Below are positions 4,721 through 58,027 of a DNA stretch of 64,000 nucleotides, piece by piece. Position numbers and translations under genes: made by a program. Position 1 is the stretch's first letter; the number at the start of each line of letters is the position of its first letter. The DNA is from Companilactobacillus heilongjiangensis (lineage in GTDB: Bacteria; Bacillota; Bacilli; Lactobacillales; Lactobacillaceae), in assembly GCF_000831645.3 (NCBI RefSeq), contig NZ_CP012559.1, positions 744,001-808,000 on the forward strand. The letters run 5' to 3'. The notes beneath the pieces are model-generated. The model saw only the letters and a program-made list of their open reading frames with translations. It searched no databases and was not told where the DNA came from.

Positions 4721-4912
4721 AGTCGGAAGAGCTGGGAAATATTTGTGTGCCGTGGTAGTGGTATAAGTACGGGAGCTCCTCCCGTACTTATACCACCGGG
4801 CGTGTTTGGAGACTTGACGAATTGTGTCAAGGCTTCAAACCGAGGTTCGAGACCGTATTTTGTCTCGGACCGGTCCGCACAGCTTGAGAATATTTCCCAG
4901 CTCTGGAGACGG
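4721..4912 (+). repeat. Cloverleaf repeat R1 (full length)
   Basis: A dispersed structured repeat. The outer stem 4728-4743 pairs perfectly (16 bp, agagctgggaaatatt) with 4889-4904. Inside are three hairpins: arm A (tggtataagtacggga with its perfect complement, about 4756-4793), arm B (gtttggagacttgac with gtcaaggcttcaaac, about 4804-4840) and arm C (ggttcgagac with gtctcggacc, about 4844-4872). The ends are AGTCGGAAGAG and CTCTGGAGACGG. It lies alone between the terminator at 4610 and the XRE regulator, in sense with the downstream gene. The rest of the 4611-5047 gap shows only AT-rich sequence. Confidence 0.93.
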
Positions 4913-5047
4913 AATATTTAACAAACACTGCATTCTAAATTATTAAGTTTATAAATAAATATGAAAACAATTCCTTTTCTATGCATTTATTTTATTTTTA
5001 CTTTAGAATTGAAGTAGGTTATTAAATAGAGAAGTCAGGGATTGCAT

Positions 5048-5866
5048 ATGAAAAACTTAGGGGCTGTCTTAAAAGAATTACGTAAAGAAAAAGGTTTAAC
5101 ACAAAAAGAATTGGCTGAAGGTGTCTGTGCTCAGTCAATGTTGTCAGCGATTGAGAATGATGTTTATATTCCCAACGCTAATCTGTTAGTGAATCTGGCA
5201 AAAAAATTAGAGGTTGATCTAAACGAGATTAGTTTGGCAGCTAATTATAAAATTAGTGTTCACAGTGATTTCAACGAAACAGTGGATAAGCTGTGCAATA
5301 GTCACCAATATCAAAAGTTATTGGAATTTTTGGAACAAGATGCTGTGACAGATTCTTTGGAAACTTCACAACAAATGCAGGCTTACTATTACTATCTTGG
5401 GGTTGCTCAATTACAAACTGGTTCGTTAGATGCTGGTTTAAGTTCATTCAGACTATCCTTAGCAGAAGTAAATCATTTACACTTGAATACCATTTCTAGA
5501 TTAGCTTATTTGGCAATGGGCGTAATTGACGTTTTGCAGAATAATAAAACGGGAGCGGTCGACAATATTGATCTCGCATTTCGTAATTGGAATGAATTTG
5601 CTTATGATGAAAATCAAAATATCATTTATTATTTAGCCGCCTTAATTTATTTCAAATTGAACGATTATCAGAATTCAACGGCTTATTTGGTTGATGGCAT
5701 TGCTTTTATTGCTAAGCATGATTCACATTATATGTTGGCAAATTGTTATTTTCTAATGGCTCGTTTAGCACAAGAGGCCCACAACGATGATGAACGTTTG
5801 GAAGCGAATCAACGGAAAGATTTATTCTCAGAATTATATGGAGAACAAATTTTCAAAGATTTCTAA
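5048..5866 (+). CDS. XRE-type regulator with TPR-like C-terminal domain (Rgg/PlcR-like architecture)
   Basis: A probable cytoplasmic transcription regulator of 272 residues. Residues 1-65 form a Cro/C1-type helix-turn-helix (LKELRKEKGLTQKELAEG...SMLSAIENDVYIPNANLL). The remainder is helical with tetratricopeptide-like spacing (YYYLGVAQLQTGSLDAGLSSF, IYYLAALIYFKLNDYQNSTA, YMLANCYFLMARLAQEA), as in the Rgg and PlcR families, whose C-terminal domains bind short peptides. No small peptide gene could be supported next to it, so a peptide ligand is only a possibility. The ATG at 5048 is preferred to the TTG at 5042 because of the AGGGA site upstream. Confidence 0.8.
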   Translation: MKNLGAVLKELRKEKGLTQKELAEGVCAQSMLSAIENDVYIPNANLLVNLAKKLEVDLNEISLAANYKISVHSDFNETVDKLCNSHQYQKLLEFLEQDAVTDSLETSQQMQAYYYYLGVAQLQTGSLDAGLSSFRLSLAEVNHLHLNTISRLAYLAMGVIDVLQNNKTGAVDNIDLAFRNWNEFAYDENQNIIYYLAALIYFKLNDYQNSTAYLVDGIAFIAKHDSHYMLANCYFLMARLAQEAHNDDERLEANQRKDLFSELYGEQIFKDF

Positions 5867-5941
5867 AATATCAGAATACTGATTTTTAAATGAGCCCGTT
5901 TTTTCATATGATTGCCTTATCAAATTAGGGGAGAAACAATC

Positions 5942-6364
5942 ATGAAAAAATTATTTGAAAATGAAATACTGATTAAGGCTGATAAAAATACTGTTAAAAA
6001 GTTTTTATTGGAAGTACCTAATTTATTGAAATGGAATTGGGCGATTGGGAATATTAAAGAAATCAGTGACCGTACTTATGCGATTCATCGGGATGTTAAT
6101 GCTTTGAATAAAGATGAAATTGTTGAAATTAAACAAAATAATAGTGATGAAATTATTTTTCAAAGCACTACTGGAACACTGGAGTATCAACTGGTTTTCC
6201 AATTAAATGAGGAATCTGGTTTTACTAGGATTACGGAACAGCTTTATCCAACTAACGATTTGAAATTACCATTAGCTTTGTTCGCACCAATTGTTAAAAA
6301 TGCTTTTAACCAAAATCTACATGCTTTAAAAAATCTGTTAGAGCTTCAAGTGACAAAAATGTAA
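5942..6364 (+). CDS. SRPBCC-family (START/polyketide cyclase-like) protein
   Basis: A 140-residue soluble protein whose pattern (NEILIKADKNTVKKFLLEVPNLLKW at the start, alternating beta strands, then a long C-terminal helix FAPIVKNAFNQNLHALKNLLE) fits the SRPBCC helix-grip fold, a lipophilic-ligand binding fold. The ligand cannot be told from sequence. I start at the ATG at 5942 because AGGGGAGA lies just upstream; the open frame extends 30 bases further left without a ribosome site. It follows the XRE regulator by 75 bp. Confidence 0.65.
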   Translation: MKKLFENEILIKADKNTVKKFLLEVPNLLKWNWAIGNIKEISDRTYAIHRDVNALNKDEIVEIKQNNSDEIIFQSTTGTLEYQLVFQLNEESGFTRITEQLYPTNDLKLPLALFAPIVKNAFNQNLHALKNLLELQVTKM

Positions 6365-6444
6365 GTTTGTTGTAAGCGAATTCTATGTACTATTTGTACG
6401 GAATAACTTATTATGTAAATGAAGATAAAGAGGAGGAGTAGCTT

Positions 6445-6630
6445 ATGCATATTTCAATTAGACGTTCGAGAAGTAATTATGTTTTTGCTGGTGTGATTGG
6501 TGGATTGGCAGAACATTTTCAATGGAATCCAACTATCGCCAGAGTTTTGTGGGTAGTACTATGTTTGACACCATTTCCGGGTATCATAGGCTACTTGGTA
6601 CTCTGGATGTTAATGGAAAATCCTGATTAA
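6445..6630 (+). CDS. PspC-domain mini-protein (61 aa), copy 1
   Basis: A one-domain PspC protein. RSRSNYVFAGVIGGLAEHFQWNPTIARVLWVVL matches the PspC pattern (conserved GGLAE/CxxGLA, then W-N-P-x-x-x-R) followed by a hydrophobic membrane segment TPFPGIIGYLVLWML. In Firmicutes such proteins are linked to envelope-stress responses; that role is inferred. GAGGAGG precedes the ATG. It is followed 17 bp later by a second copy of the same type. Confidence 0.85.
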   Translation: MHISIRRSRSNYVFAGVIGGLAEHFQWNPTIARVLWVVLCLTPFPGIIGYLVLWMLMENPD

Positions 6631-6647
6631 TAATAGAGGTTAAGACA

Positions 6648-6842
6648 ATGCATATTCCAATAAAGAGATCGAAGAACAATCAAATTTTAGGTGGAGTTAT
6701 TGCCGGTTTATGTGAACAATATGATTGGAATCCAGCGATTGGCCGAGTACTTTACGTGGTACTCAGTTTGACACCAATGTTTCCCGGAATTATCGTTTAC
6801 TTGATTCTGTTGTTATTGATGGAAAAGCCAGACGAAGCTTAA
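6648..6842 (+). CDS. PspC-domain mini-protein (64 aa), copy 2
   Basis: A tandem paralogue of 6445-6630 (shared pattern MHI-I-RS--N----GVI-GL-E---WNP-I-RVL-VVL-LTP--PGI--YL-L-LME-PD), so a local duplication. The predicted topology is the same, with one membrane segment. The two genes end at a strong bidirectional terminator at 6868-6903. Two nearly equal single-domain PspC genes may form heteromers, but nothing in the sequence proves it. Confidence 0.85.
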   Translation: MHIPIKRSKNNQILGGVIAGLCEQYDWNPAIGRVLYVVLSLTPMFPGIIVYLILLLLMEKPDEA

Positions 6843-6867
6843 TTAAAATAAATTGTTAAATAATAAA

Positions 6868-6903
6868 AGCCATAATAATCTGTATTTTCAGATTACTATG
6901 GCT
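6868..6903. terminator. Bidirectional terminator between pspC pair and HAD gene
   Basis: A 15-bp stem (6868-6882 with 6889-6903; agccataataatctg) with one mismatch and a short loop. A-rich sequence on the left and T-rich on the right allow termination of both converging genes. Confidence 0.85.
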
Positions 6904-6910
6904 ATTTATT

Positions 6911-7702
6911 TTATAGTTGGAAAAATTCACCGATGGTATTTAAAACTCCATCGTGATCGTTGTCATCTTTAGTAATGTGGTCAGCTGCCTTGAGGACTGA
7001 TGGTTTGGCATTTTTCATGGCGTAGCTAATACCAGATTCTTCAAGCATTTCCAAATCATTGGTATTGTCACCAAATGACATGACATTTTCTAGAGATAGA
7101 TTTAATCCTTCGGAAAGATGTTGTAATCCTAGGCTCTTATTGACGTTATTGCTCATGATGTCGATACTGCCGAAACCACTAACAGCTGCATAAATTTTGT
7201 TGCCGTATTTTTGGTTTAACAATTGGATAGCTGCATCTAGATCATCGTGTTGCAATTGAATGTTAAATTTGAATATTTCATCGTCAACTTTTGTAAGGTC
7301 GGGGACAACTTTAAGATTATTAATGTGGTAGAGTGGCTGATTTTCCTTAGATTCTGAGTAACTTGCTTTTTTACCAGAAAGTGAAATTGCTTTGAGGTCT
7401 AATTCATTTGTTAAAGTGGTAATCATATCGTGCACTAATTCTTTTGGAACTAGTTTTTCATACAAAGTTTTTTGATGTGAAATGATTTGTGAACCATTTT
7501 CGGCAATAAAGGCATCAATATCGGGACTCTCTTTAAAAATTCTTTCTAAGTGGTCGTAATTGTTACCACTGGCAATGGCAAATTTAATATTCTTTTGATG
7601 CAATAAATTTAAATAATTATTCAAACGTTTTACATCATAATTGTGTTCAGTGTCAAAAAGCGTACCGTCAATGTCGGTCGCAATCAATTTAATATCGCTC
7701 AA
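6911..7702 (-). CDS. Cof-type HAD-superfamily hydrolase
   Basis: A cytoplasmic sugar-phosphate or nucleotide phosphatase of the Cof/YidA type, 263 residues. The nucleophile motif DIDGTLF is at residues 10-16, the Lys/Thr region is in the middle (ASGNN near 43), and the fourth motif GDNTNDLEML lies near residue 215. The long insert between is the C2 cap domain. The substrate is not deducible. A second Cof-type gene is at 32738-33514. The ribosome site AGGAGGATT reads correctly on the minus strand. Confidence 0.85.
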   Translation of the reverse strand: MSDIKLIATDIDGTLFDTEHNYDVKRLNNYLNLLHQKNIKFAIASGNNYDHLERIFKESPDIDAFIAENGSQIISHQKTLYEKLVPKELVHDMITTLTNELDLKAISLSGKKASYSESKENQPLYHINNLKVVPDLTKVDDEIFKFNIQLQHDDLDAAIQLLNQKYGNKIYAAVSGFGSIDIMSNNVNKSLGLQHLSEGLNLSLENVMSFGDNTNDLEMLEESGISYAMKNAKPSVLKAADHITKDDNDHDGVLNTIGEFFQL

Positions 7703-7741
7703 AGAAAATCCTCCTGAATAATTAATAATAGAGATTTTAAT

Positions 7742-7762
7742 AACGTAACTTAACCTTACGTT
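7742..7762. promoter_or_regulatory. Perfect 7-7-7 inverted repeat upstream of the LysR gene
   Basis: aacgtaa (7742-7748) and ttacgtt (7756-7762) are perfect complements with a 7-base gap, lying between the divergent HAD and LysR genes. It could be a regulator operator (LysR proteins use interrupted dyads with a T-N11-A core). Which regulator binds is unknown. Confidence 0.45.
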
Positions 7763-7848
7763 TATAAAGCGGATATTTCAACAGAATGTTTAGAGATTCA
7801 TGCTACAATTAATTTCTGTAAGTTTAGTTTCAAGAAAGGAAGATCACT

Positions 7849-8763
7849 GTGGATTTAAATAAGTTTAAGGTTTTTGTCGATTTATCAAAAACACTCAATT
7901 ATACTGAAACAGCTGAGAATCTTTTCACGACTCAGGGAAATATATCCAAACAAATATTAGCTCTTGAAAAGGGCTTAAATGTTTCCTTATTTAAACGAGC
8001 GCATCGAAAGATTGAACTGACTGAACAGGGGAAATTAATTCTTCCATACGCGCAAAATATTTTACGTGATTATGAACAATTAACTGTTAAATTGGATGAT
8101 TATCAAGCTGCTCAAAATATGACGATTGAGATGCATACGATTCCGACGATGCCTAGTTATCAAAGCTTTGGCTTAATTAGTCAATTTTTACGTGACTATC
8201 CAGATGTCCAAATGCAGCTTAAAGAGGAAGAAAGTTACAATTTAATAACTTCTTTGAAAGCTGGTAAATGTGAAGTGATTTTTGCACGGACTTTTAAGTT
8301 TGTTGATCCAAAATTGGAACGGATTGTCATGGAAGATGATAAATTCGTGGCTGTTTTACCACAGGGACATGTTTTAGCCACCCAAGATAAATTAGATTTA
8401 GCTGATTTAAAGACTGAAAAATTTTTAATTTTAGGTAATTCGACTAATCTCTATTTGCCAGTTTTAGAGCTTTGTCAGCAGGCTGGATTCAAAGCTAACG
8501 TTGTTTATGAGGGCACACGTGTGGACTTGATCATGCAAATGGTTCAAAATAATATGGGTGTATCGGTGATGACAGCTAAGACTGCCAAGCAATTTGCGAA
8601 TAAAGCAGTTGCCATTGTGCCTTTAACGGCTAATATTACCAATAAATTGTGTTTTATCAGAGTTAAAGGACAACATTCGAAAGCAAATAATCTCTTTTGG
8701 AATTATATTCAAAAGCAGGTTGGAAATGATGGGGGACGAGACGATTCAAGAATTATCAACTAA
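7849..8763 (+). CDS. LysR-family transcriptional regulator
   Basis: A 304-residue regulator. The N-terminal winged helix-turn-helix is recognisable (LNYTETAENLFTTQGNISKQILALEKGLNVSLFKRAHRKIELTEQG, residues 15-60), followed by the periplasmic-binding-like effector domain. The start is GTG, with GAAAGGAAG about 8 bases upstream. The last 38 bases overlap the start of the helicase gene, so the two are translationally coupled. No decisive target gene is adjacent on the other strand (a HAD phosphatase), so the regulon is unknown. Confidence 0.88.
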   Translation: MDLNKFKVFVDLSKTLNYTETAENLFTTQGNISKQILALEKGLNVSLFKRAHRKIELTEQGKLILPYAQNILRDYEQLTVKLDDYQAAQNMTIEMHTIPTMPSYQSFGLISQFLRDYPDVQMQLKEEESYNLITSLKAGKCEVIFARTFKFVDPKLERIVMEDDKFVAVLPQGHVLATQDKLDLADLKTEKFLILGNSTNLYLPVLELCQQAGFKANVVYEGTRVDLIMQMVQNNMGVSVMTAKTAKQFANKAVAIVPLTANITNKLCFIRVKGQHSKANNLFWNYIQKQVGNDGGRDDSRIIN

Positions 8764-11050: not shown

Positions 11051-11097
11051 TTTTTAGAGTATGATAGTTGTATATACCAAATATGCTAATTAAGTAT

Positions 11098-11277
11098 GCC
11101 GTCTCCGGATCTGATAGTATTCCCCTGCTGTGCGGAACGGTCCGAGCCAAAGATCGGTCTCGAACCTCGGTTTGAAGCCTTGCATAAATCGCAAGTCTCC
11201 AAACTCGTCCGGTGGTGTAATGGCTAAAGCCATAACGCCACTTCCACTGCGAGTAAATACTATCAGATCCTCCGACT
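11098..11277 (-). repeat. Cloverleaf repeat R2 (left partner of the R2/R3 pair)
   Basis: Read on the minus strand. The outer stem 11107-11121 pairs perfectly with 11256-11270 (15 bp, ggatctgatagtatt), a sequence unlike R1 although the ends (CCGTCTCC / CCGACT on this strand) and the three arms are conserved. Arm A is the TGGCGTTATGGC/GCCATTACACCA type, arm B ends in gcaag/cttgc, and arm C is ggttcgag/ctcggacc. It lies just after the helicase gene in antisense direction. Its 5' end faces that of R3, 147 bp away. Confidence 0.92.
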
Positions 11278-11424
11278 GGGTTCTTAAAAATAAATTGAGT
11301 GTTTTATCATAGGTATTTAAGAATCATTGAAATATGTACGGTGCTAGTTGATGACCTAATATGAATATTTCATGTTTTTAAAAATTGTTTGAATACTTTT
11401 ACATTCAACTAATAACGATTGATT

Positions 11425-11528
11425 AGTCGGAAGAACTGGGAAATATTTGTGTGCCGAGGTTCGAGACCGTACCTTGGCTCGAGCCGTTCCGCACATCTTG
11501 AGAATATTTCCCAGCTCTGGAGACGGCA
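11425..11528 (+). repeat. Cloverleaf repeat R3 (internal deletion form)
   Basis: The shortest copy. The outer stem 11432-11447 pairs with 11503-11518 (16 bp, one A-C mismatch), but arms A and B are missing and only arm C (ggttcgag/ctcgagcc) remains. The junction is at a gccg repeat present on both sides of the missing part in full-length copies, so a precise deletion is likely. About 90 bp upstream are homologous to flanks of R8 and R10. The outer flank taattagcat mirrors the flank of R2, making the R2/R3 pair one large inverted unit (about 11083-11542). Confidence 0.9.
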
Positions 11529-11593
11529 TATTTAATTAGCATCACACCTATTTAAAGTAAGTTATTAACAGGAACTAAAGATGGGGGAAAGTA

Positions 11594-11869
11594 ATGAAAA
11601 TTCGTCGTATTATTGAAATAATTCCAACTGTTATTTTGATAGCAATTTATTTATACAGTTTGTCATTGCACATGAGCGGTGGGGCTTGGGGTACGCCGTT
11701 TGTTATCAGTGTTACTGGCTTGAGTTTCTACATTCCGGTAATATCATTTATAGAAGCAATGATAAGTTCAACACGGAATCCTAAATATAAAAAACAAAAT
11801 AAAATATTTTATGGTTATATGATTGCGGTTTGGGTTATCTCATTGGTTGCCGCTATGTTTTCTATGTAA
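11594..11869 (+). CDS. Small membrane protein (91 aa)
   Basis: Not recognised. It is 91 residues with three likely membrane segments (IIPTVILIAIYLYSLSLHM; FVISVTGLSFYIPVISFIEAMI; FYGYMIAVWVISLVAAMF) and a basic loop RNPKYKKQNK between the second and third. The ribosome site GATGGGGGAAAG precedes the ATG. It stands alone between repeat R3 and an intrinsic terminator. Confidence 0.65.
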   Translation: MKIRRIIEIIPTVILIAIYLYSLSLHMSGGAWGTPFVISVTGLSFYIPVISFIEAMISSTRNPKYKKQNKIFYGYMIAVWVISLVAAMFSM

Positions 11870-11885
11870 GCAGGAATATAAAAAG

Positions 11886-11914
11886 AAAAAGCATTCCATT
11901 TTGGAATGCTTTTT
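11886..11914 (+). terminator. Intrinsic terminator after the small membrane protein gene
   Basis: A perfect stem aaaaagcattcca/tggaatgcttttt (11886-11898 with 11902-11914) with a 3-nt loop, ending in T. Confidence 0.88.
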
Positions 11915-11986
11915 GCTTTATCTTGAATTGTTCTGAAGTATAGTCAGTCCTTATAATTGACCTTGTTAAGAAAGCGAGGCAATTGT

Positions 11987-13459: not shown

Positions 13460-13471
13460 GGAAGTATTGAT

Positions 13472-14451: not shown

Positions 14452-14452
14452 A

Positions 14453-14486
14453 AAAAAGACATTCCAATTTTAAGGAATGTCTTTTT
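14453..14486. terminator. Bidirectional terminator between lpdD and coaBC
   Basis: aaaaagacattcc (14453-14465) pairs with ggaatgtcttttt (14474-14486), serving the two converging genes. Confidence 0.88.
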
Positions 14487-14489
14487 GAG

Positions 14490-20592: not shown

Positions 20593-20595
20593 AAT

Positions 20596-38885: not shown

Positions 38886-41027
38886 TTATTTCTTATTCAA
38901 ATATGACCAACTATCAATTGGTGTTCGATCATCTTGCAATTGAACCGCATCAGTATTGTAGAGGTCAGTCGTGGATTTATTGCCATTCTTAGAATAAAGG
39001 CTAGTTGATTTGTCGCCTAAATCATTTCGAATTTTTTCCATTTGTTGAACTTGATTTTGATATGAATAATTAGCTGGATTGACAGGATTAAATCCGGTTG
39101 GTGTATAGAATCTCAACAAGTTTTTATTATTGATATTATCGGAAGTCTTGAGTTGCAAGTCGACTTCATATTCCCATCGATCAACTTTGGTCAAAAGTTC
39201 TGGATTATTGCGCATATCAATTTTTTCACCGGTAGCGTTGGAATAAACCTGCGTGCTTGCACCACCATTGCGATAGACGGTGTATTGTGGCGTAATGAAA
39301 TCTTTATTTCTAAAAGCAACAATCTGACTATGCTTTTTGGAAAGTAAGTCAGTTCCGAGTTGAACGTACTGTTTCGTATTGACCCCAGCCAAATGCAAGA
39401 TAGTAGGTAAGATGTCAATTTCACCACCGTAAGTGTGTTTAATCCCACCTTTTAAACCATCCATGTGAATCATAAATGGAACTCGCTGCATTTGCGTATC
39501 ATTGAATTTAGTCCAAGTATCAGGGGTTTTACCAACCATGGTTGAAAGAGATTTGTGTTGCGTATCATTCAAGCCATAGTGGTCACCATATAAGACAACC
39601 ATGGTGTTTTTATCTAAGCCAGATGCCTTGAGATAATTGAAAAACTCTTCAACTGACTTGTCCAAGTAATGAGCTGTTTTGAAATAGCTGTTGACGGTTG
39701 GATTAGGATTGTCAGCAGTTTGGAAATCGGCGTTGTCCTCATCTGAAAATTGATAGCCGACATGATTAGTAATAGTTAAAAATTTCGTGTAGAAGGGCTG
39801 TTGCATCTGTTCCAGATACTTAGCACCCTCCGCAAACAAAAGCTTATCTTTGACACCATAGCCGTTCAACGACAAGGTGTCAGGATCTTTGGTATCGTAA
39901 TAAGTTTCATCAAAGAAATAGTTATAACCCATATTCTTATAGGTTACATTTCGTCCCCAGAAACTACCGATATTACCGTGGAAAACGGCACTCGTGTAGT
40001 TTTTTTGTTGCTGAAGAATTGCAGGAGCTGATTGGAAAGTATTGTCGCCACCGAGCTTCTGGAAGAATGATCCTTCAGGCAATCCGAAGAGGTCAGACTC
40101 AAGCATTGTTTCGGCGTCACTAGTCCGGCCACCACCAACTTGATTGAAGAAATTATCATAGGAAAGAGTGTTTTGGTCGTTGTAGAGACTGTTCAGAAAT
40201 GGTGTAACTTCCTGACCGTTAATCTTCATGCCAATTAAGAATTGTTCAAAACTTTCCAAGTGAATAACAATGATATTTTTACCATTGGCTTTGCCAAAAT
40301 ACTGAGCGTTAGGTGCGGCGTAATGTTCTTTGGTATAGTCGAGCGCTGTATCAACTTCAGTCTCGGTAGCACTAGAACGAACTTGATCATTTTGAATTGA
40401 ACGAACTGAATCATAGGCTAGAAAACTGTTAATACCCAAATATTTGACGATATAAGAGTGATCAAAGGTTTTTCCAAGTAATTGGGGACGATTGGCTTCA
40501 GAACCTGCCAAATCGGCTGAGAATAATGCTAGTCCTAAACAAGTGGTTGCTAGGGCAGTGACTTTTCGAAAAGGTCGCTTGTCGATTTTTATAAAGTGAG
40601 TAGCGAACAAAATAATTATTATTATGAAGTCAATAAAGTAGAATATATCGCTCAATTGCATGGCACTAGCGGTACTTTTTCCAAGACCTTTGGCGACTTT
40701 AGAAACACCTGTAATAGTGCTGACAGATAGAAAGTCGCCGTTTTCACGATAATAAAGGATATTTGCATAAATAAAGATGGTATCCACAATATGAATAATG
40801 CCCATAACGATGTAGGAAAGTTTCGGCTTATTGAGATAAAGTGCCAAACTCAACAAAAGAACAGTTGTTGCGAAGGGATTCACGATGATAAAGAAGTATT
40901 GCCAGAGATTATTAATGGCCAGTGAAAACCCCATGAAGTATGCCAGAACTGATTTGAACCATAAACAGAGAGCTAATAAGGTTAGAAAACCTAGTCTCGT
41001 GTTTAAAATGGATTGAATTTTTTTCAT
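38886..41027 (-). CDS. LTA synthase family sulfatase (LtaS paralogue 1)
   Basis: A membrane enzyme that polymerises or primes glycerol-phosphate chains of lipoteichoic acid, using phosphatidylglycerol. 713 residues: five membrane segments in the first 220, then an extracellular sulfatase-like domain with the metal Glu in VIHLESFEQFL, the nucleophile Thr in GGGRTSDAETMLES (about residue 300), and GDHYG near 470-480. I start at the ATG at 41027 (ACGAGGAAAAAC upstream). The frame is open 120 bases further, but that part is repeat R4, not protein. A tandem paralogue lies upstream at 41615-43765. Confidence 0.92.
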   Translation of the reverse strand: MKKIQSILNTRLGFLTLLALCLWFKSVLAYFMGFSLAINNLWQYFFIIVNPFATTVLLLSLALYLNKPKLSYIVMGIIHIVDTIFIYANILYYRENGDFLSVSTITGVSKVAKGLGKSTASAMQLSDIFYFIDFIIIIILFATHFIKIDKRPFRKVTALATTCLGLALFSADLAGSEANRPQLLGKTFDHSYIVKYLGINSFLAYDSVRSIQNDQVRSSATETEVDTALDYTKEHYAAPNAQYFGKANGKNIIVIHLESFEQFLIGMKINGQEVTPFLNSLYNDQNTLSYDNFFNQVGGGRTSDAETMLESDLFGLPEGSFFQKLGGDNTFQSAPAILQQQKNYTSAVFHGNIGSFWGRNVTYKNMGYNYFFDETYYDTKDPDTLSLNGYGVKDKLLFAEGAKYLEQMQQPFYTKFLTITNHVGYQFSDEDNADFQTADNPNPTVNSYFKTAHYLDKSVEEFFNYLKASGLDKNTMVVLYGDHYGLNDTQHKSLSTMVGKTPDTWTKFNDTQMQRVPFMIHMDGLKGGIKHTYGGEIDILPTILHLAGVNTKQYVQLGTDLLSKKHSQIVAFRNKDFITPQYTVYRNGGASTQVYSNATGEKIDMRNNPELLTKVDRWEYEVDLQLKTSDNINNKNLLRFYTPTGFNPVNPANYSYQNQVQQMEKIRNDLGDKSTSLYSKNGNKSTTDLYNTDAVQLQDDRTPIDSWSYLNKK

Positions 41028-41050
41028 GTTTTTCCTCGTAACTAAGAAAT

Positions 41051-41230
41051 GCCGTCTCTGGGTGTGAGGGATGTGCTCTGCTGTGGGACCGGCTCGAGCC
41101 ATAGAGCGGTCTCGACCCTCGCTTTTGAGCCGAAGTTCGCGTCTCAAAAGACGTCCTGTGGTGTAAGAACGGGAAGGTCCCCCGTCCTAACACCACTATC
41201 ACTGCGGATCACATCCCACACACCCAGAGA
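41051..41230 (-). repeat. Cloverleaf repeat R4, directly upstream of LtaS paralogue 1
   Basis: Read on the minus strand. The outer stem 41055-41075 pairs with 41210-41230 (21 bp, one mismatch; tctctgggtgtgagggatgtg), a sequence shared with no other copy here. Arm A is a gacggg-type hairpin ending in ttacacca, arm B is cttttgag/ctcaaaag, arm C ggGtcgag/ctcgagcc. It ends only 23 bp before the ltaS start codon, in sense, so it must be in the 5' leader unless the promoter lies inside it. Its 5' end faces R5 across 138 bp. Confidence 0.9.
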
Positions 41231-41368
41231 CTAATGTATTGGTTATTTGTTTTGTTGTTGGTATTTATTACGTATATTAATTGATAATTTAATATTTTTT
41301 GTTTTTGTAATGGAAATGACAAAAATAATAATTCCATTGATGTAAGAATAAATATCATAAAAAATAAA

Positions 41369-41545
41369 TTAGCCAAAGGCGGACATCAAGGTAGTCTGCT
41401 GTGGAGGTGGCGTTATGGCTTTAGCCATTACACCACGGGGCGAATTTGGATACTTGCGGTCTGTGCAAGGATTCAAATCGAGGTCCGAGACCTTGGTTTG
41501 GACCGGTCCCCATAGCGACTGCCTTGATGTCCACCTTCGGCGGCA
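41369..41545 (+). repeat. Cloverleaf repeat R5
   Basis: The longest outer stem: 41372-41396 pairs with 41517-41541 (25 bp, two A-C mismatches and one wobble; core ggacatcaaggtagtc). Arm A is the TGGCGTTATGGC type, arm B is atttggatacttgc/gcaaggattcaaat, arm C is ggtccgag/tttggacc. The ends are TTAGCC and GGCGGCA. It is antisense to and downstream of LtaS paralogue 2, and head-to-head with R4. Confidence 0.9.
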
Positions 41546-41591: not shown

Positions 41592-41615
41592 AAAAAAAGC
41601 CAGCGTTTGCTGACT
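41592..41615 (-). terminator. Intrinsic terminator of LtaS paralogue 2
   Basis: On the minus strand agtcagc-aaac-gctggct (one wobble; 41615-41598) is followed by seven T-equivalents at 41598-41592. It begins at the ltaS stop codon. Confidence 0.82.
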
Positions 41616-43765
41616 TAATTTGATGTATCGCTATTGCCCTTGAGAATACTGGACCAACTGTCAATTACTGTTCGGTCGCCATTTAGTTCTGGAGCGTCAG
41701 TATTGTACAGATTAGTGGTTGTTTTATTGCCATTCTTGGAATAAACACTGGTTGATTTCAAACCAAGATCATCACGTGTTTTGACTAATCTTTGGATTTC
41801 ATTTTGGTAACTGTAATCTTTGGAATCAATTGGTGTAAATCCGGTTGGTGTATAGAAACGTAATAGATTTTTATTGTTAATGGTATCTGATAATTTCAAT
41901 TTAGTATTAACTGCTTCTTGCCACTTAGCAACTTTTCGCTTCAAAACTGGATCTTGATCAAGGTCGACTTGTTCGCCAGTACTGTTCTTGAATACTTGTG
42001 GATTGCCATCGCTATCTTTCAAGACGGTGTAATTTGGCGTGATAAAGTTCTTATTTCGGAAAGCTACGATTTGACTGTGATTTTTCGACAACAGGTCGGT
42101 TCCTAATTGCACGTATTGTTTAGTGTTGATGCCTGCCATGTGGAGAATAGTTGGTAAGACGTCGATTTCACCACCATATGTGTGATTGATGCCACCTTTG
42201 AGGCCTTTCATGTGAATCATAAATGGAACTTTTTGCATTTGCGAATCATTGAATTCAGTCCAGTCGCTGCTGTCGACTCCCACTAATGGCGCTAGGGCAG
42301 TGTTTTGACTGTTTGAAAGTCCATAGTGATCGCCGTAAAGAACAATCATTGAATTGTCGTAAATCCCACTTGATTTCAGATAATCGAAGAATTCTTTCAA
42401 AGCGTTATCTAAATAATGGGCAGTGACAAAGTAGTTGTTAACGGCACTGTTATCAGTATTTGGAGCTTGGAAGCCGTCATTATCTTCAGCTGGTAAATCA
42501 AATGGATAGTGGTTGGTAACGGTAATAAATTTAGTGTAGAACGGTTGTTGCAACTGTTCGAGATATTTGACACTTTCTGAAAGCATTAATTTATCTTTCA
42601 TACCATATTGCAAACTTGAATCGTCAGTTTTATTGTAATAACTGGAATCAAAGAAGTAGTCGTACCCCATGTTTTTATAAACATTGTCACGGTTCCAGAA
42701 ACTACCGACATTACCGTGGAAAACAGCGCTAGTATAGCCATCTTTTTGTCCTAAAATAGCAGGTGCAGCTTGGAAGGTATTGTCGCTGCCAAGTTTTGAG
42801 AAAAGCGATCCTTCAGGTAATCCGAAGAGGCCAGTTTCAAGCATGTTTTCGGCATCACTAGTTTTACCTTGTCCAACTTGATGATAGAAATTATCGAATG
42901 ACATCGTATTTTTATCGTTATAGAGGCTGTTTAAAAATGGTGTAACTTCTTGGTCGTTGACTTTATCGTTGATCAAAAATTGTTGAAAACTTTCCAAATG
43001 AATAACGATAATATTCTTTCCTTTAGCTTCGCCAAAATATTTGGGATTTGGTTTGGCATAATTCTGTTTGGTATAGGAAAGGACATCATCCATATCCGTC
43101 CCGACCGCTTCCGAACGGACTTGGTTATTTTGAACTGTCTTGATTGAGTCATAAGCTAGAAAAGTGTTGAGCCCCAAGTACTTGACGATATAAGCTCGAT
43201 CAAAGGTTCGACCGAGTAATTGCGGACGGTTACTTTCGGCAATAGTTAAATTGAGTGAGAAGAAAAAGATTCCCAAAAAAGTTGTCGCAATTGCTGTCAA
43301 TTTTCTCATTGGTCTGGCATCAATTTTGATATAATGGGTAAGTAACAATATAGCGATAATAATGAAATCTAAACCATAAATAAAATCATGTGGTTGCATC
43401 ATATTGGCAGCACTGCCACCGAGTCCCTTGGAAACCTTAGAAACTCCGGCAATCGTGTTGAATGATAGAAAATCGCTGAACTCACGATAGTAAAGAATAT
43501 TCCCGTAAAGCAGGGCTGATTCTAAGAAGTATATAACGCCCATAACGATGTAAGATGCTTTGGAACGGGTTATGTATAACGCTATACTGAGTAAGATAAC
43601 GGCTGTTGCAATCGGATTGATGATCAGAATCAAATGTTGTAACGGGTCCGAAACGCCTAACGAAAAGTCGGCGTAATAAGCAATGACCGTTTTAAACCAG
43701 AGGAAAAAGATTAGGAGTCCCATGAAACCTAGTCTTTTATTGAGGATATTTTTTAATTTATTCAT
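41615..43765 (-). CDS. LTA synthase family sulfatase (LtaS paralogue 2)
   Basis: A 716-residue paralogue of 38886-41027 with the same plan: five N-terminal membrane segments, then the extracellular sulfatase-type domain with HLESFQQFL, the nucleophile Thr in GQGKTSDAENMLETG, GDHYG and the metal region near HMKGLKGGINHTYGGEIDVLP. Large blocks are identical to paralogue 1 (for example the NKNLLRFYTPTGF tail), so this is a tandem duplication. In other Firmicutes, paralogues divide into primase and polymerase roles; which is which here is not readable. It has its own terminator, and repeats R4 and R5 fill the gap between the two genes. Confidence 0.92.
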   Translation of the reverse strand: MNKLKNILNKRLGFMGLLIFFLWFKTVIAYYADFSLGVSDPLQHLILIINPIATAVILLSIALYITRSKASYIVMGVIYFLESALLYGNILYYREFSDFLSFNTIAGVSKVSKGLGGSAANMMQPHDFIYGLDFIIIAILLLTHYIKIDARPMRKLTAIATTFLGIFFFSLNLTIAESNRPQLLGRTFDRAYIVKYLGLNTFLAYDSIKTVQNNQVRSEAVGTDMDDVLSYTKQNYAKPNPKYFGEAKGKNIIVIHLESFQQFLINDKVNDQEVTPFLNSLYNDKNTMSFDNFYHQVGQGKTSDAENMLETGLFGLPEGSLFSKLGSDNTFQAAPAILGQKDGYTSAVFHGNVGSFWNRDNVYKNMGYDYFFDSSYYNKTDDSSLQYGMKDKLMLSESVKYLEQLQQPFYTKFITVTNHYPFDLPAEDNDGFQAPNTDNSAVNNYFVTAHYLDNALKEFFDYLKSSGIYDNSMIVLYGDHYGLSNSQNTALAPLVGVDSSDWTEFNDSQMQKVPFMIHMKGLKGGINHTYGGEIDVLPTILHMAGINTKQYVQLGTDLLSKNHSQIVAFRNKNFITPNYTVLKDSDGNPQVFKNSTGEQVDLDQDPVLKRKVAKWQEAVNTKLKLSDTINNKNLLRFYTPTGFTPIDSKDYSYQNEIQRLVKTRDDLGLKSTSVYSKNGNKTTTNLYNTDAPELNGDRTVIDSWSSILKGNSDTSN

Positions 43766-45958: not shown

Positions 45959-46144
45959 TGCCGCCTACGGGTTCCAGTGATTCCGACGCTATGGACCGGT
46001 GCGAGCCAAAGTACGGTCTCGCGCCTCGATTTTGAGCTTCGCATGGTGCGCGAATCTCAAAATACGTCAGTGGTGTAAGAGCAGAAAATCGCTGCTCTAA
46101 CGCCACTCTCATAGCTGTCTCCATCACTGGAACCCGTAGGCTAA
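45959..46144 (-). repeat. Cloverleaf repeat R6
   Basis: Read on the minus strand. The outer stem 45963-45980 pairs perfectly with 46124-46141 (18 bp, gcctacgggttccagtga). Arm A is a tagagcag/ctgctctta hairpin, arm B attttgagattcgc/gcgaagctcaaaat, arm C ggcgcgag/ctcgcacc. Ends TTAGCC and GGCGGCA as in R5. It follows the pgi terminator directly and is head-to-head with R7, 146 bp away. Confidence 0.9.
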
Positions 46145-46290
46145 TGTGTTTGATAAGGTCTGTTGTCTTGAATCGGATACTTCTGATTGCTTGATAATTG
46201 CTTTGGATTAATAAATTAATCAGAAATTAAAAATAAATAGCTATGATAGATTGGATTTAAACTTAGATATGAGTCAAGTATGTATAAATG

Positions 46291-46482
46291 AGTCGGAGGA
46301 GATGGGAGAGAGGATTCACCCGCTGTGGGTGTGGCGTTACGGCTTTAGCCGTTACACCACCGGGCGTGTTTGGAGACTTACCGGTCTTTGGTAAGGCTTC
46401 AAACCGAGGTTCGAGACCGCACTGTGGCTCGGACAGGTCCGCATAGCAGGTGAAATCCTCTCTTCCAGCTCCGGAGACGGCA
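46291..46482 (+). repeat. Cloverleaf repeat R7
   Basis: The outer stem 46298-46320 pairs with 46449-46472 (about 22 bp with one mismatch, a wobble and a bulged base). It continues into gctgtgg/ccgcatagc. Arm A is TGGCGTTACGGC/GCCGTTACACCA, arm B gagacttacc/ggtaaggctt, arm C ggttcgag/ctcggaca. Compared with R9 the stem differs at several paired positions that change together. It lies upstream and in sense of the L,D-transpeptidase gene. Confidence 0.92.
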
Positions 46483-47177: not shown

Positions 47178-47195
47178 ATTAATTGAAAACATGCA

Positions 47196-47240
47196 AAAAG
47201 CTCTCAGTAAATCTAAGTTGATTTACCGAGGGCTTTTTTT
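47196..47240. terminator. Bidirectional terminator between L,D-transpeptidase and GH92 genes
   Basis: aaaaagctctcagtaaatc pairs with gatttaccgagggcttttt (small mismatches). It serves both converging genes; the GH92 stop overlaps its right edge. Confidence 0.87.
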
Positions 47241-49395: not shown

Positions 49396-49397
49396 TA

Positions 49398-50441: not shown

Positions 50442-50504
50442 ATGTCCAAATCCTTTCTATTGCTTATAATATAGCACATAATTTTGGAAAAAGAACTAGT
50501 TTTT

Positions 50505-50525
50505 TGTAAACGCATGCATTATACT
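50505..50525 (+). promoter_or_regulatory. Cre-like box and -10 element of the GH125-GH38 operon
   Basis: tgtaaacgcatgca (50505-50518) fits the cre consensus at 12 of 14 positions and directly precedes a -10 TATACT (50520-50525). The box lies within the promoter spacer, so binding would block transcription. The -35 is weak. The 50442-50562 gap is the shared divergent control region with the GntR-type gene. Confidence 0.6.
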
Positions 50526-50562
50526 AATTGGGCAAATGATATATCAATTGGAGGATTTGAAA

Positions 50563-51855: not shown

Positions 51856-51868
51856 AGGTAGAAAAAAC

Positions 51869-54559: not shown

Positions 54560-54580
54560 GTTTCGGCTGCCAGTTAAATA

Positions 54581-54775
54581 TGCCGTCTCCAGAGCTGGGA
54601 AATATTCTCAAGCTGTGCGGAACGGCCCGAGCCAAAGGGCGGTCTCGAACCTCGGTTTGAAGCCTTGACACAGTTCGTCAAGTCTCCAAACACGTCCGGT
54701 GGTATAAATACGGGAGAAATCTCCCGTACTTATACCACTACCACGGCACACAAATATTTCCCAGTTCTTCCGACT
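54581..54775 (-). repeat. Cloverleaf repeat R8
   Basis: Read on the minus strand. The outer stem 54591-54606 pairs with 54753-54768 (16 bp, one wobble). Arm A is an 18-bp type hairpin around cgggagaaatctcccg, arm B gacttgac/gtcaagg, arm C ggttcgag/ctcgggcc. It belongs with R1, R3 and R10 by stem sequence. About 100 bp of its 5' flank (54776-54878) are homologous to the flank of R3. It starts 22 bp after the GH38 stop, so it may also serve as the 3' end of that transcript. Confidence 0.92.
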
Positions 54776-54980
54776 AATTAATCGTTATTTGTTGAATGTA
54801 AAATATTTGAATGTATTTATATTCAAACAATTTTAGGCCGTGAAATATTAAAAGTAGGTTATCAACTAGCACCATGCATAAATATAATTAATTGAAGTAG
54901 ACTATAAAAAATGCCGCGATGGTATGGCTTATAGTCTATTTTTAAATTTGTAGAAGATGATCGGAGTGAATAGTTAAATT

Positions 54981-55172
54981 AGTCGGAGGAGCAGAGAGGT
55001 AGGATTCACCCGCTGTGGGTGTGGCGTTACGGCTTTAGCCGTTACACCACCGGGCGAGTTTGGAGACTTACCGGTCTTTGGTAAGACTTCAAACCGAGGT
55101 TCGAGACCGCACTTTGGCTCGGACCGGTCCGCATAGCAGGCGAAATCCTACCTCCCTGCTCCGGAGACGGCA
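54981..55172 (+). repeat. Cloverleaf repeat R9
   Basis: The outer stem 54988-55010 pairs with 55139-55162 (about 22 bp, one bulge, one mismatch). Arm A is TGGCGTTACGGC/GCCGTTACACCA as in R7, arm B gagacttacc/ggtaagactt, arm C ggttcgag/ctcggacc. It is head-to-head with R8 at 205 bp, and in sense upstream of the ABC ATPase gene. The spacer 54776-54980 shows no gene. Confidence 0.92.
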
Positions 55173-55228
55173 CTTTTAGCAATAGTGTACAAAAATACCA
55201 AAAGATTTTAGTTGTTTTGTATTTTTAA

Positions 55229-55242
55229 TGTAAGCGTTTTTC
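55229..55242 (+). promoter_or_regulatory. Cre-like box upstream of msmK
   Basis: tgtaagcgtttttc fits the cre consensus at 12 of 14 positions and lies 67 bp before the ATP-binding protein gene, after repeat R9. It matches the tgtaagcg cores before the PucR gene and the ABC permease genes. Confidence 0.5.
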
Positions 55243-55309
55243 AAATAAAATGGGTATATCAATTAAAGACAGACATAATATAAATAAATAATCGTGAGAG
55301 GTTCTAATT

Positions 55310-56419
55310 ATGGTAGAAATTGATTTAAATCACATTTATAAGAAATACGCTAACTCTGAAGAAGATGCTTATGCTGTTTCAGATTTCGATTTACATATCA
55401 AAGACAAGGAATTCATCGTCTTCGTTGGGCCATCAGGTTGTGGTAAGTCAACAACTCTTCGTATGATTGCCGGTTTGGAAGATATTTCTAAAGGTGAATT
55501 GATCATCGATGGTAAGTATGAAAATGATACAGCTCCTAAAGACCGTGATATTGCCATGGTTTTCCAAAATTATGCTTTGTATCCACATATGACTGTATTT
55601 AACAACATGGCTTTTGGTTTGAAGTTGCGTAAATACGAAAAAGAAAAGATTGAAGAAAAAGTTAAATACGCCGCTGAAGTATTGGGATTGGAAGAGTATC
55701 TTGATAGAAAACCTGCTGCTTTATCTGGTGGTCAAAGACAACGTGTTGCTTTAGGTAGAGCAATCGTTCGTGATGCACCAATTTTCCTAATGGATGAACC
55801 ATTATCTAACTTGGATGCCAAATTACGTGTTAACATGCGTGCTGAAATTGCTCGACTACACCAAAGACTCAACACAACTACAATTTACGTTACCCACGAT
55901 CAAACCGAAGCTATGACCATGGCCGACAGAATCGTTGTTATGTCAATGGGTGAGGTTCAACAGATCGGAACACCACATGAAGTTTATGCAACACCTAAGA
56001 ACAAATTTGTTGCCGGATTTATTGGATCACCAGCAATGAATTTCTTCGAAGTTGAATATAAAGATGGCATCATTAAAGATGGACAAGGATTATCATTGAA
56101 GGTTCCTGAAGGACGTGCCAAAGTTCTTAATGAAAAAGGCTACAATGGCAAACGCGTTACTTTAGGCCTTCGTCCAGAAGATATTCACGCTGAAGGTGCT
56201 TTTGAAGAGACATGGCCTGAATCATCTGTTAAATGTGAAGTCGTCGTATCTGAATTATTGGGTGCAACTTCAATGCTTTACTCAAAGATTGACGGTACAG
56301 AATTCGTTGCAATCGTTGATGCACGTGATTATCACAAACCAGGCGATACAGTAGACTTAACTTTTGATTTGAATAAAGCACATTTCTTTGATGATAAGAC
56401 AGAAGAAGCCATTAGATAA
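55310..56419 (+). CDS. msmK: Carbohydrate ABC transporter ATP-binding protein (MsmK/UgpC type)
   Basis: The cytoplasmic ATPase of carbohydrate importers, 369 residues. Walker A GPSGCGKST is at about 41-49, Q-loop FQNYALYPHM, signature LSGGQRQR, Walker B IFLMDEPLSNLDAKL, H-loop THDQTEA, then the C-terminal regulatory OB-fold domain (about 240-369) with LGLRPEDIHAEG. MsmK-type proteins are often shared by several sugar importers, and the ABC permease operon at 61221 shows no ATPase within the window, so this is the likely partner. It is a monocistronic unit between repeats R9 and R10. Confidence 0.93.
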   Translation: MVEIDLNHIYKKYANSEEDAYAVSDFDLHIKDKEFIVFVGPSGCGKSTTLRMIAGLEDISKGELIIDGKYENDTAPKDRDIAMVFQNYALYPHMTVFNNMAFGLKLRKYEKEKIEEKVKYAAEVLGLEEYLDRKPAALSGGQRQRVALGRAIVRDAPIFLMDEPLSNLDAKLRVNMRAEIARLHQRLNTTTIYVTHDQTEAMTMADRIVVMSMGEVQQIGTPHEVYATPKNKFVAGFIGSPAMNFFEVEYKDGIIKDGQGLSLKVPEGRAKVLNEKGYNGKRVTLGLRPEDIHAEGAFEETWPESSVKCEVVVSELLGATSMLYSKIDGTEFVAIVDARDYHKPGDTVDLTFDLNKAHFFDDKTEEAIR

Positions 56420-56521
56420 TAGTTTAATATCAATATTTCATAGTTTAAAATTCGCCGTTTAAAAATTTCTTGAATATAAATATATTTGAATAATTTTATA
56501 TTCAATTATTACTGATCAACT

Positions 56522-56716
56522 AGTCGGAAGAGCTGGGAAATATTTGTGTGCCGTGGTAGTGATATAAGCACGGGAGAAATCTCCCGTACCTATATCACCG
56601 GGCGAGTTTGGAGACTTACCGGTCTGTGGTAAGTCTCCAAACCGAGGCCCGAGACCGTACTTTGGCTCGGGCCGTTCCGCACAGCTTGAGAATATTTCCC
56701 AGCTCTGGAGACGGCA
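56522..56716 (+). repeat. Cloverleaf repeat R10
   Basis: The outer stem 56529-56544 pairs perfectly with 56691-56706 (16 bp, same as R1). Arm A is tgatata..cgggag/ctcccg..tatatca, with the G-C pair of R1 replaced by A-T on both sides; arm B gtttggagacttacc pairs perfectly with ggtaagtctccaaac; arm C ggcccgag pairs perfectly with ctcgggcc. The 5' flank (56433-56521) resembles those of R3 and R8. It lies between msmK and the PucR-type gene, in sense with both. Confidence 0.93.
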
Positions 56717-56789
56717 TAATTAAAAAAAGCACCAACCAGATAATTTGATTGGTGTTTTTGAAGTACAATCTCGAATTTAGACAATAAAA

Positions 56790-56833
56790 CTAGAATTTGT
56801 TACTTAATTTGTCATTTATGTAAGCGTTACAAT
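56790..56833 (+). promoter_or_regulatory. Regulatory region of the PucR-type gene, similar to that of the ABC permease operon
   Basis: The stretch tagaatttgttacttaattt...atgtaagcgttacaat is clearly related to 61133-61179. It ends in the dyad tgtaa-gcg-ttaca (56819-56831), a cre-like or private operator. The two control regions were probably duplicated. Confidence 0.55.
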
Positions 56834-56903
56834 TATATCCGTTAAGAAAATATTATTACGATAGTTTTTCAAAATATATAGAACGTGAATGGTGGCAAAT
56901 ATT

Positions 56904-57761
56904 ATGGTGGGAAGTGTAGCAAGATTTTTAAAACTTTATCCAAGTGCAAAGTTGACGACTGAGCCAGTTTCGAATGCAACTAGTTTTAATTGTCTGATTG
57001 CCGGTCAATGGATCAACGTTGATAAGCGTAATCTAACCGAACCAGAAAAGTTTTTGTTGTCGCTGATGAGCCAAGAGGATTCCTCCAAAGCTGTTCAGAA
57101 TAATTGGTGGCATTTTTTGACAGGTAAAGCTGACGACATTCCCACAATAAATAAAAATGTTAGAATCATTCAATTTGAAATCCAAAAGAATGAAACTAAG
57201 CAAAATGCCATTGAATGGTTGAGAGTATTCAAAGATACCTTTGATGATGTGGTCGATTGCTTTTTAATCAGTAATAATTCAGGAGTATTAATTGAAACAG
57301 AAACGACTAGTTGCATGGATAAAGAGAGCATCCAACAGATGGTTCAATTACTCGATTCAGATTTTTATACCAAGAGTAACCTTTACATTGGGCAGTTTTG
57401 GCCAGTCGATGAGAAGCTACCTAACATTTTTGAGAGCGAAAGACGCTTGTTTAAAAAATCAATAGAAATGAGAGACCGAGTTAATAATCTTTCGACCGTA
57501 ATCTTAGATTTTCTAGTTGAGCAAAATTTGAAGAATACCGATTTGTTTAAGAGTTTACGCGATAAGATTGAAATTGATCATAAAACAACCCAAATGATCG
57601 ATGCGTTATATCGCTGCGACTCTAATCTAGCAAAGACATCAAAAATGTTGTTCTTACACAGAAATACATTGCTATATCGAATTGAAAAATTTTATGAACA
57701 AACAGGATTTGATTTAAAAGACCGAGACGATTTGATTCTATGTTTCTTGCTATTGAAGTAA
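56904..57761 (+). CDS. PucR C-terminal helix-turn-helix (CdaR-like) regulator
   Basis: A 285-residue putative transcription activator. The C-terminal 55 residues fit the PucR/CdaR helix-turn-helix (IDALYRCDSNLAKTSKMLFLHRNTLLYRIEKFYEQTGFDLKDRDDLILCFLLLK). The N-terminal part is unrecognised and may sense a ligand. I use the ATG at 56904 because GGTGG lies 8 bases before it; the ATG at 56889 has no good site. It lies between the ATPase and the endoglycosidase gene, suggesting control of the glycan genes (inference). Confidence 0.83.
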   Translation: MVGSVARFLKLYPSAKLTTEPVSNATSFNCLIAGQWINVDKRNLTEPEKFLLSLMSQEDSSKAVQNNWWHFLTGKADDIPTINKNVRIIQFEIQKNETKQNAIEWLRVFKDTFDDVVDCFLISNNSGVLIETETTSCMDKESIQQMVQLLDSDFYTKSNLYIGQFWPVDEKLPNIFESERRLFKKSIEMRDRVNNLSTVILDFLVEQNLKNTDLFKSLRDKIEIDHKTTQMIDALYRCDSNLAKTSKMLFLHRNTLLYRIEKFYEQTGFDLKDRDDLILCFLLLK

Positions 57762-57795
57762 TTGAATCTTGTATATTGAATCCCATATAAAGAAG

Positions 57796-57827
57796 ACTGC
57801 AACGAAATAAGGTTGCGGTTTTTTTAG
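57796..57827 (+). terminator. Intrinsic terminator after the PucR-type gene
   Basis: actgcaac (57796-57803) pairs with gttgcggt (57812-57819, one wobble), followed by T. Confidence 0.8.
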
Positions 57828-57846
57828 TCCAATTATAAAAGAAAAG

Positions 57847-58027
57847 AGTCGGAAGAGCTGAGAGTATTCACCAGCTGTGGGTGTGGCGTTATGGCTTTAG
57901 CCATTACACCACCGGGCGTGTTTGGAGACTTGACGAATTGTGTCAAGGCTTCAAACCGAGGCTCGAGACCGCACTGTGGCTCGTGCCGGTCCGCATAGCA
58001 GGTGAATACTCTCAGCTCTGGAGATGG
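57847..58027 (+). repeat. Cloverleaf repeat R11
   Basis: The outer stem 57854-57872 pairs perfectly with 58001-58019 (19 bp, agagctgagagtattcacc), a third stem type that shares agagct with R1 but differs beyond. Arm A TGGCGTTATGGC/GCCATTACACCA, arm B gacttgac/gtcaaggc, arm C ggctcgag/ctcgtgcc. It lies 20 bp after the terminator and in sense upstream of the GH85 gene. Confidence 0.93.

Follow-up and report, generated by a model that had tools for sequence, protein, structure and literature searches.

A dispersed cloverleaf repeat of Companilactobacillus heilongjiangensis occurs in divergent pairs and may belong to non-autonomous transposable dyads

Introduction

The window examined here is a stretch of 64,000 nucleotides of the Companilactobacillus heilongjiangensis genome (positions 744001-808000 of a single 2,790,548-bp contig, the 2.79-Mb chromosome, NZ_CP012559.1), and it holds eleven copies, R1 to R11, of an intergenic repeat that folds into a large cloverleaf. 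The question raised by this locus is what such a repeat is and how it came to be dispersed. A first-pass annotation had offered three possibilities, namely a non-autonomous mobile element moved by a transposase acting on folded single strands, a structured RNA, or a chromosome-organising site. From the evidence presented below, we give an even chance to the reading that each repeat is a subterminal structural module of a non-autonomous transposable dyad, the dyads forming a superfamily within the Lactobacillales. That annotation missed both the divergent pairing of the copies, which is a rule, and the genome-wide scale of the family. No description of these repeats in lactobacilli was found among the top-ranked results of the literature searched.

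Copy number and genomic placement

All eleven copies were recovered at the starts and on the strands first assigned to them. Ten are full copies (approximately 177-198 nt) with the outer stem, the three arms A, B and C, and the islands CGAGACCG and TGGCTCG as originally described, whereas R3 is a short form and not a cloverleaf, because arms A and B are missing. The ends of the copies are sharp, reading (A)YTAG.. at the start and ..GRCGGC(A) at the finish. A short form of the R3 type was also present on a Limosilactobacillus reuteri plasmid.

A 15-base core motif, CGAGACCGNNNNNTGGCTCG, searched with up to 2 mismatches, gave 470 matches in the genome (246 forward and 224 reverse) against 0 and 1 for the reversed-pattern control, and chance is therefore excluded. 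A profile search of 864 kb, comprising two 400-kb pieces and the window, yielded 254 hits; seven were dropped before pairs were counted (six that shadowed a better hit on the opposite strand and one that overlapped another on the same strand), leaving 247 copies. The repeat accounts for 5.1% of the sampled DNA, as counted on 253 hits. With 171 of the motif matches falling in this sample, the whole genome is estimated to contain from approximately 680 copies (motif ratio) to approximately 800 (density).

The earlier observation that nearly every gap longer than 400 bp is filled held roughly, with 125 of 166 such gaps in the 864 kb occupied according to crude gene calls. By the same crude calls the copies disregard gene direction, their 3' ends facing 117 gene starts and 124 gene ends. 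In each of the four gap types the 3' ends lie near gene borders, at a median distance of 64 bp; of 96 lone copies, 75 have a gene closer to their 3' end than to their 5' end; and no strand bias was detected in the sampled pieces. Promoter-like sites scoring at least 9 were found in 18/203 of the 3' flanks read outward, in 4/203 of those read inward, and in 3/203 of the 5' flanks in each direction, using an approximate sigma-A-like matrix whose shuffle is a mean of five with a zero that is not comparable. At a few sites a terminator beside a copy could be recognised by eye, and we infer that the copies follow one gene's terminator and precede the promoter of its neighbour. A role of the copies as 5' leaders was rejected, since the scan with this approximate matrix gave no signal pointing into them.

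Divergent pairing

Among the 74 cases in which adjacent copies are separated by less than 400 bp, 71 were arranged in (-)(+) order, with the 5' ends facing each other and the 3' ends directed outward; the remaining three comprised one (+)(-), one (+)(+) and one (-)(-) arrangement. In 2000 shuffles the (-)(+) count had a mean of 18.5 and a maximum of 31. These 71 pairs include 142 of the 247 copies, are present in all four gap types, and have a median length of 545 bp from outer edge to outer edge. An origin of the pair members as local duplicates was rejected, as their identity (66%) was no higher than that of random pairs (68%).

The same order predominated in named loci of other species, including Companilactobacillus huachuanensis (27 of 35), Companilactobacillus nantensis (4/5), Levilactobacillus tujiorum (3/3), Levilactobacillus hammesii (1/1) and Secundilactobacillus odoratitofui (1/1), and the (+)(-) order was absent among the pairs in 80 such loci, some of which may overlap. 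Pairs also recur at several places in the genus of genome G082. Some (-)...(+) copies with outward 3' ends flank whole genes or operons of 1-3 kb (e.g. L057:4355-6837).

Fold, covariation and strand preference

Base-pair covariation was examined on an alignment, A2, of 60 copies less than approximately 86% alike, these being the first 60 of 213 candidates; MAFFT alignments of such distant copies are approximate. In A2, 97.0% of 3275 cells pair, compared with 80.9% after shuffling and 35-39% in slid controls, two-sided change was found in 39 of 55 pairs (26.8 shuffled), and the covariation score was 0.472 (0.168 shuffled). None of the three values was reached in any of 500 shuffles. The outer stem is the most variable part, and one of its pairs occurs as CG, GC, AU, GU and UA. 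Diverse copies covary clearly, and a lack of covariation, which the first-pass annotation had named as grounds for refutation, is rejected.

Pairing is also maintained over short distances. Between the members of 28 independent close pairs of copies (mean identity 93%), 23 double compensations were found where simulation gave 1.9, and 29 broken pairs where simulation gave 86. The excess of compensation between close copies indicates that the constraint acts on the dispersed copies and not only on a few sources.

The fold is real and best on one strand. A2 contains 136 G-T cells and 19 A-C cells, and when both strands were folded, single G-T changes in close pairs numbered 46 on the sense strand versus 23 on the antisense strand (p 0.008). 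The sense strand had the lower minimum energy in 165 of 219 copies with RNA folds and in 195 of 219 with DNA folds.

Insertion polymorphism and carrier elements

Sites of the repeat in the window were compared with those of close relatives, of which genomes G257 and G265 were matched to C. huachuanensis and C. nantensis, respectively. In G265 and G075 the gap orthologous to that of R2/R3 has no copy; in G273 it contains one (-) copy. The whole R4-R5 unit is missing from G265 and G261. In G257 the R8/R9 gap also carries a divergent pair, but one of other subfamilies, which points to re-insertion or gene conversion. Copy number is likewise patchy between close species, with 2-9 covariance-model matches in G261, G075, G213 and G267 versus at least 150 in G257, G273 and G265.

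A young class comprises 24 of 227 near-full copies and includes R1, R8 and R10. Many of its members sit in a miniature inverted-repeat transposable element (MITE), MITE1, with the terminal inverted repeat (TIR) ACGCRTGGTGCTAGTT; the label TIR1 denotes ACGCGTGGTGCTAGTT. Both copy-free and copy-holding versions of MITE1 exist within the home genome (from matches to 259 bases of flank probes, among which the copies without the element were followed), and one MITE1 copy has the 8-bp AAGTAATT on both sides. A second carrier, MITE2, has the TIR ACTRAAGGTTGAAAG, labelled TIR2, and holds copies in G257. In the window, the outer flank of R2 contains an inverted counterpart of the right TIR1-like end at 11532..11547 (an 11-nt inverted match).

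The dyad as a unit was examined in G158, a genome of another Lactobacillaceae genus. A pair-containing DNA query gave 72 matches among the best 40 of 192 candidates, and 37 of the 72 listed matches, by our own count, span the whole pair and its spacer. Twenty of these 37 loci were analysed, and each contains one (-) and one (+) copy (40 hits); the loci are alike across the spacer, with a best match per locus of 80-91%. Inverted ends CTAGAACTGTTATGTTGC...GCAACATAACAGTTCTAG (CTAGAACTGTTATGTTGC being labelled TIR3) occur in 13 of 21 sequences, comprising the 20 loci and L273, and ten of the units with inverted ends have a length of 491-503 bp. Empty sites, recent dispersed copies with sharp ends, passengers in MITEs and the approximately 500-bp unit of G158 together support the earlier proposal of a non-autonomous mobile element.

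A parent transposon was sought between divergent copies. Ten proteins from 8 of 16 (-)...(+) intervals (400-4000 bp) were ordinary genes apart from one IS30-like protein, and an autonomous parent was rejected for the intervals checked. The IS30-like transposase gene lies in one such interval (L064:14243-15271) and has HTH_38 and a sub-cut-off rve match. A 527-residue open reading frame beside a TIR1-like site was also rejected as a transposase, being a Na/H exchanger. Genes for IS200-type Y1 transposases are missing from the copy-rich genomes G273, G265 and G193, and mobilisation by IS200/RAYT enzymes was rejected on that ground.

Relatives across the Lactobacillales and comparison with Rfam

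With 1 mismatch allowed, 40 of 251 Lactobacillaceae genomes contain the core motif, many of them with one or two matches that are possibly due to chance; within Companilactobacillus it occurs in 12 of 36 genomes. A first covariance model (model R1), built from A2, had matches in all 15 genomes chosen for it, with at most the best 150 candidates scored in each. Across 295 Lactobacillales genomes 12 were matched by this model at 1e-6; E-values are rough, the covariance models having been short-calibrated. A broader model (model R2), trained on the hits of the first including three loci of one genus of another family, matched 48 of the same 295 genomes with the best 8 candidates scored per genome, 32 of them belonging to that genus. 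When model R2 was run on 299 genomes from the phylum, only the home genome and one of the other-family genus were matched. Phage records queried with R8 gave no match.

The other-family genus is very probably Streptococcus, since 14 of 14 of its loci match the Rfam family SSRC8_2 (RF02616, Streptococcus sRNA 8) below the cut-off and two of its genomes carry a motif that we take to be boxA (13 matches). In total, 15 of 20 loci matched SSRC8_2 below the cut-off, comprising the 14 Streptococcus-like loci and 1 of 6 others (best E 2e-13). The best score among the Streptococcus-like relatives was 56.9 bits, compared with a gathering cut-off of 72 bits, and the home-genome copies searched gave no match to SSRC8_2. 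An Rfam search of the window found nothing at the gathering cut-off, with chance-level hits only in 3.5 kb. An Rfam match, the other grounds for refutation named in the first-pass annotation, exists only as a distant, sub-cut-off link through the Streptococcus-like relatives. Three model R1 hits in this genus lie between infB-like and rbfA-like genes. Several species share copy positions, namely the infB/rbfA-like gap and the site before a purE-like gene (L266, L267, L268; L298, L302, L305, L315); the genes were named by eye.

Proposed mechanism and alternative explanations

According to the proposed dyad, a complete unit of approximately 500 bp would consist of a TIR, a cloverleaf on the (-) strand, an AT-rich spacer, a cloverleaf on the (+) strand and a second TIR, with both cloverleaf 3' ends pointing outward. 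Single copies would represent one-sided or decayed units. The best-folding strand at each end would be the strand with the outward 3' end. In DDE-type transposition, the strand ending 3' at the terminus is the one transferred. The cloverleaf is proposed to lie on the transferred strand because the better-folding strand at each end would be this 3'-ending one; it would fold while that strand is unpaired with its complement, and a putative transposase or co-factor would read it as a shape signal. From the observed strand preference and pair geometry we infer such an enzyme and single-strand step, and the proposal would explain the upkeep of pairing on one strand, the divergent pairs and the indifference to gene direction. 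The strand-asymmetric pairing agrees with the earlier suggestion of a transposase acting on a folded single strand, but no such enzyme was found, IS200-type Y1 transposases being absent from the copy-rich G273, G265 and G193. The fuller version, a transposon superfamily with a cloverleaf of approximately 180 nt inside each end, folded on the transferred strand, and with a structured single-strand intermediate read by shape, is offered tentatively and falls clearly short of an even chance. Reading by shape and not by sequence would let stem sequences drift freely under compensation, unlike those of known terminal-repeat transposons.

Several observations weigh against the dyad. In the home genome, target duplications were not in excess around 71 pairs and 94 singles, nor were terminal repeats around the 71 pairs. 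Recent duplicates (92-96% identity) have the cloverleaf in common and mostly not the flanks, so that the cloverleaf can move, or be converted, alone. At R2/R3 the R3-carrying MITE seems to have been added beside R2 and not co-inserted with it. No mobilising transposase was found in the genes and intervals examined. Pairing in G158 is partly a product of selection, because the query held a dyad, and the independent part of that evidence is the shared spacer and ends; the inverted ends were matched with 5 mismatches allowed in 18 bases, without a chance estimate. Finally, in the 219-copy alignment the GT:AC ratio falls from 318:103 to 93:87 once the six richest pairs are removed.

Several of these points would follow if what moves were the single cloverleaf, carried as a folded DNA single strand by an enzyme of the HUH type or another kind and inserted beside a fixed 5' motif with no target duplication; dyads would then form by insertion of a further copy beside one already present. 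One-strand folding, the lack of an excess of target duplications, and the sharp (A)YTAG.. and ..GRCGGC(A) ends with mostly unshared flanks in recent duplicates all agree with this explanation, although gene conversion between copies also predicts sharp ends. The spacers common to different G158 dyads and the missing Y1 transposase genes in G273, G265 and G193 argue against it, and it is considered unlikely.

The strong covariation and the tolerance of G-U on one strand are also what would be expected of a structured RNA, either a small RNA or a cis element, under selection as RNA and spread by MITEs. The sub-cut-off resemblance of the Streptococcus-like relatives to SSRC8_2 is in keeping with this, and SSRC8, the founder of that family, gave a Northern signal in S. 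pyogenes (PMC3675131). The idea is weakened by the promoter scan, in which the approximate matrix found no signal into the copies (3/203 in the 5' flanks against 18/203 in the outward 3' flanks), and by the disregard of the copies for gene direction, leaving it improbable.

Placement of 3' ends close to gene borders in all four gap types, together with pairing kept up in dispersed copies, could instead reflect a DNA site at gene borders that benefits the host, acting as an insulator, a supercoil sink or a chromosome-organising site. Copy number is patchy between close species, sites are empty in relatives, and the sampled pieces have no strand bias; the chromosome-organising role suggested earlier found no support in the tests run, and such a site is judged quite improbable. 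Maintenance of pairing by mutation and not selection, with template switching in quasi-palindromes copying one arm onto the other, would account for the excess of double changes between recent copies and is very improbable, because its outcome should be strand-symmetric whereas G-T cells outnumber A-C cells and folding is better on the sense strand, an objection softened by the column-wise weakness of the GT excess.

Comparison with known systems

The repeats resemble MITEs in being short, non-coding, intergenic, foldable and present in high copy number, in having empty sites, and in the inverted ends found on both carrier MITEs and on dyads of G158. They differ in possessing a pair of large subterminal cloverleaves that covary and keep a fixed outward polarity, and in that neither terminal repeats nor target duplications are in excess around home-genome copies.

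BOX elements of Streptococcus pneumoniae and S. suis are modular, foldable intergenic repeats, 125 of which are reported for one genome (PMC3049150). Identity with BOX was rejected, as model R2 recovered none of the 12 BOX loci even with E values up to 1 admitted, and the sequence and arm plan of seven folded BOX loci are different. The family is distinct from BOX and, by the cut-off of SSRC8_2 itself, from SSRC8_2, to which it is distantly linked via the Streptococcus-like relatives and to which the home copies searched have no match. A further difference is that the founder of SSRC8_2 is described as one transcript (PMC3675131).

REP and REPIN sequences, associated with RAYT proteins, are high-copy intergenic repeats found in inverted pairs; the cloverleaf units are several times larger and are not associated with a Y1 transposase in G273, G265 and G193. 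With regard to IS200/IS605-type single-strand elements, a one-strand fold is supported, and in these three genomes no matching Y1 transposase was found. Integron attC sites vary in sequence, keep a one-strand fold and are targets of some group II introns. The cloverleaf repeat likewise keeps a one-strand fold while its sequence varies and hosts group II introns, but its ends and size differ from those of attC.

Group II introns and plasmids

Three sampled copies are interrupted by group II introns at one identical site, CCGC[AG]^YAGC, at approximately model position 154 of the repeat. The introns read GTGCGCC...CTACTCGAT, and two contain an open frame of 467 residues. A further intron-like match was seen in segment B at 41977-42668. 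The repeat is thus a dispersed landing site for group II introns.

Fifteen plasmid records matched the repeat, and four were inspected. In three of the four, a truncated intron open reading frame precedes the 3' portion of a copy (the sequence was read for two); the short copy of the L. reuteri plasmid is whole. Plasmid pLME300 (L043:5001-6985) shares 1985 bp at 97.4% identity with positions 178071-180055 of the home chromosome (segment A), a stretch spanning the part annotated as vat(E), a streptogramin acetyltransferase. The shared stretch starts inside a repeat copy, which on pLME300 is split by a group II intron. Judged from this sequence match, the plasmid vat(E) may have come from a Companilactobacillus chromosome, and the boundary of a chromosome segment shared with a streptogramin-resistance plasmid is marked by one repeat copy.

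Features of the window and of sampled loci

Coordinates are collected in Table 1. Two paralogous-looking genes flank R4/R5 (window positions 38886-41147 and 41615-43765, on the (-) strand) and are approximately 67% alike in DNA in cross-matches across species.

Table 1. Copies of the repeat and associated ends in the window, and introns within sampled copies
Feature	Position	Strand	Description	Basis
R1	4721..4913	+	Full cloverleaf copy, class I stem GCTGGGAAATATT, no nearby partner	
R2	11098..11277	-	Full copy, left member of divergent pair R2/R3	
Left TIR1-like end	11338..11352	+	acggtgctagttgat, TIR of the R3-carrying MITE	By-eye comparison with MITE copies
R3	11425..11529	+	Short form reduced to outer stem and arm C, right member of R2/R3	
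Right TIR1-like end	11532..11547	+	ttaattagcatcacac, R3-carrying MITE	
R4	41049..41235	-	Left member of pair R4/R5	
R5	41369..41545	+	Right member of pair R4/R5	
R6	45959..46144	-	Left member of R6/R7, just past a terminator-like T run	
R7	46289..46482	+	Right member of pair R6/R7	
R8	54580..54777	-	Class I copy inside TIR1 MITE, left member of R8/R9	
Inner TIR1 end	54857..54882	-	ggttatcaactagcaccatgcataaa, R8-carrying MITE	Alignment, by eye
R9	54978..55172	+	Right member of pair R8/R9	
R10	56520..56717	+	Class I copy, single	
R11	57847..58027	+	Full copy, single	
Intron in copy	L059 from 8982			
Intron in copy	L074 before 8148			
Intron in copy	L084 from 1201			

Conclusions

Approximately 5% of the sampled chromosome consists of one covarying folded repeat, and its strict pair geometry recurs across genera. 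If the cloverleaf is indeed a shape signal on the transferred strand, it would represent a novel mode of end recognition by a transposase, and the hundreds of natural stem variants make this idea testable.

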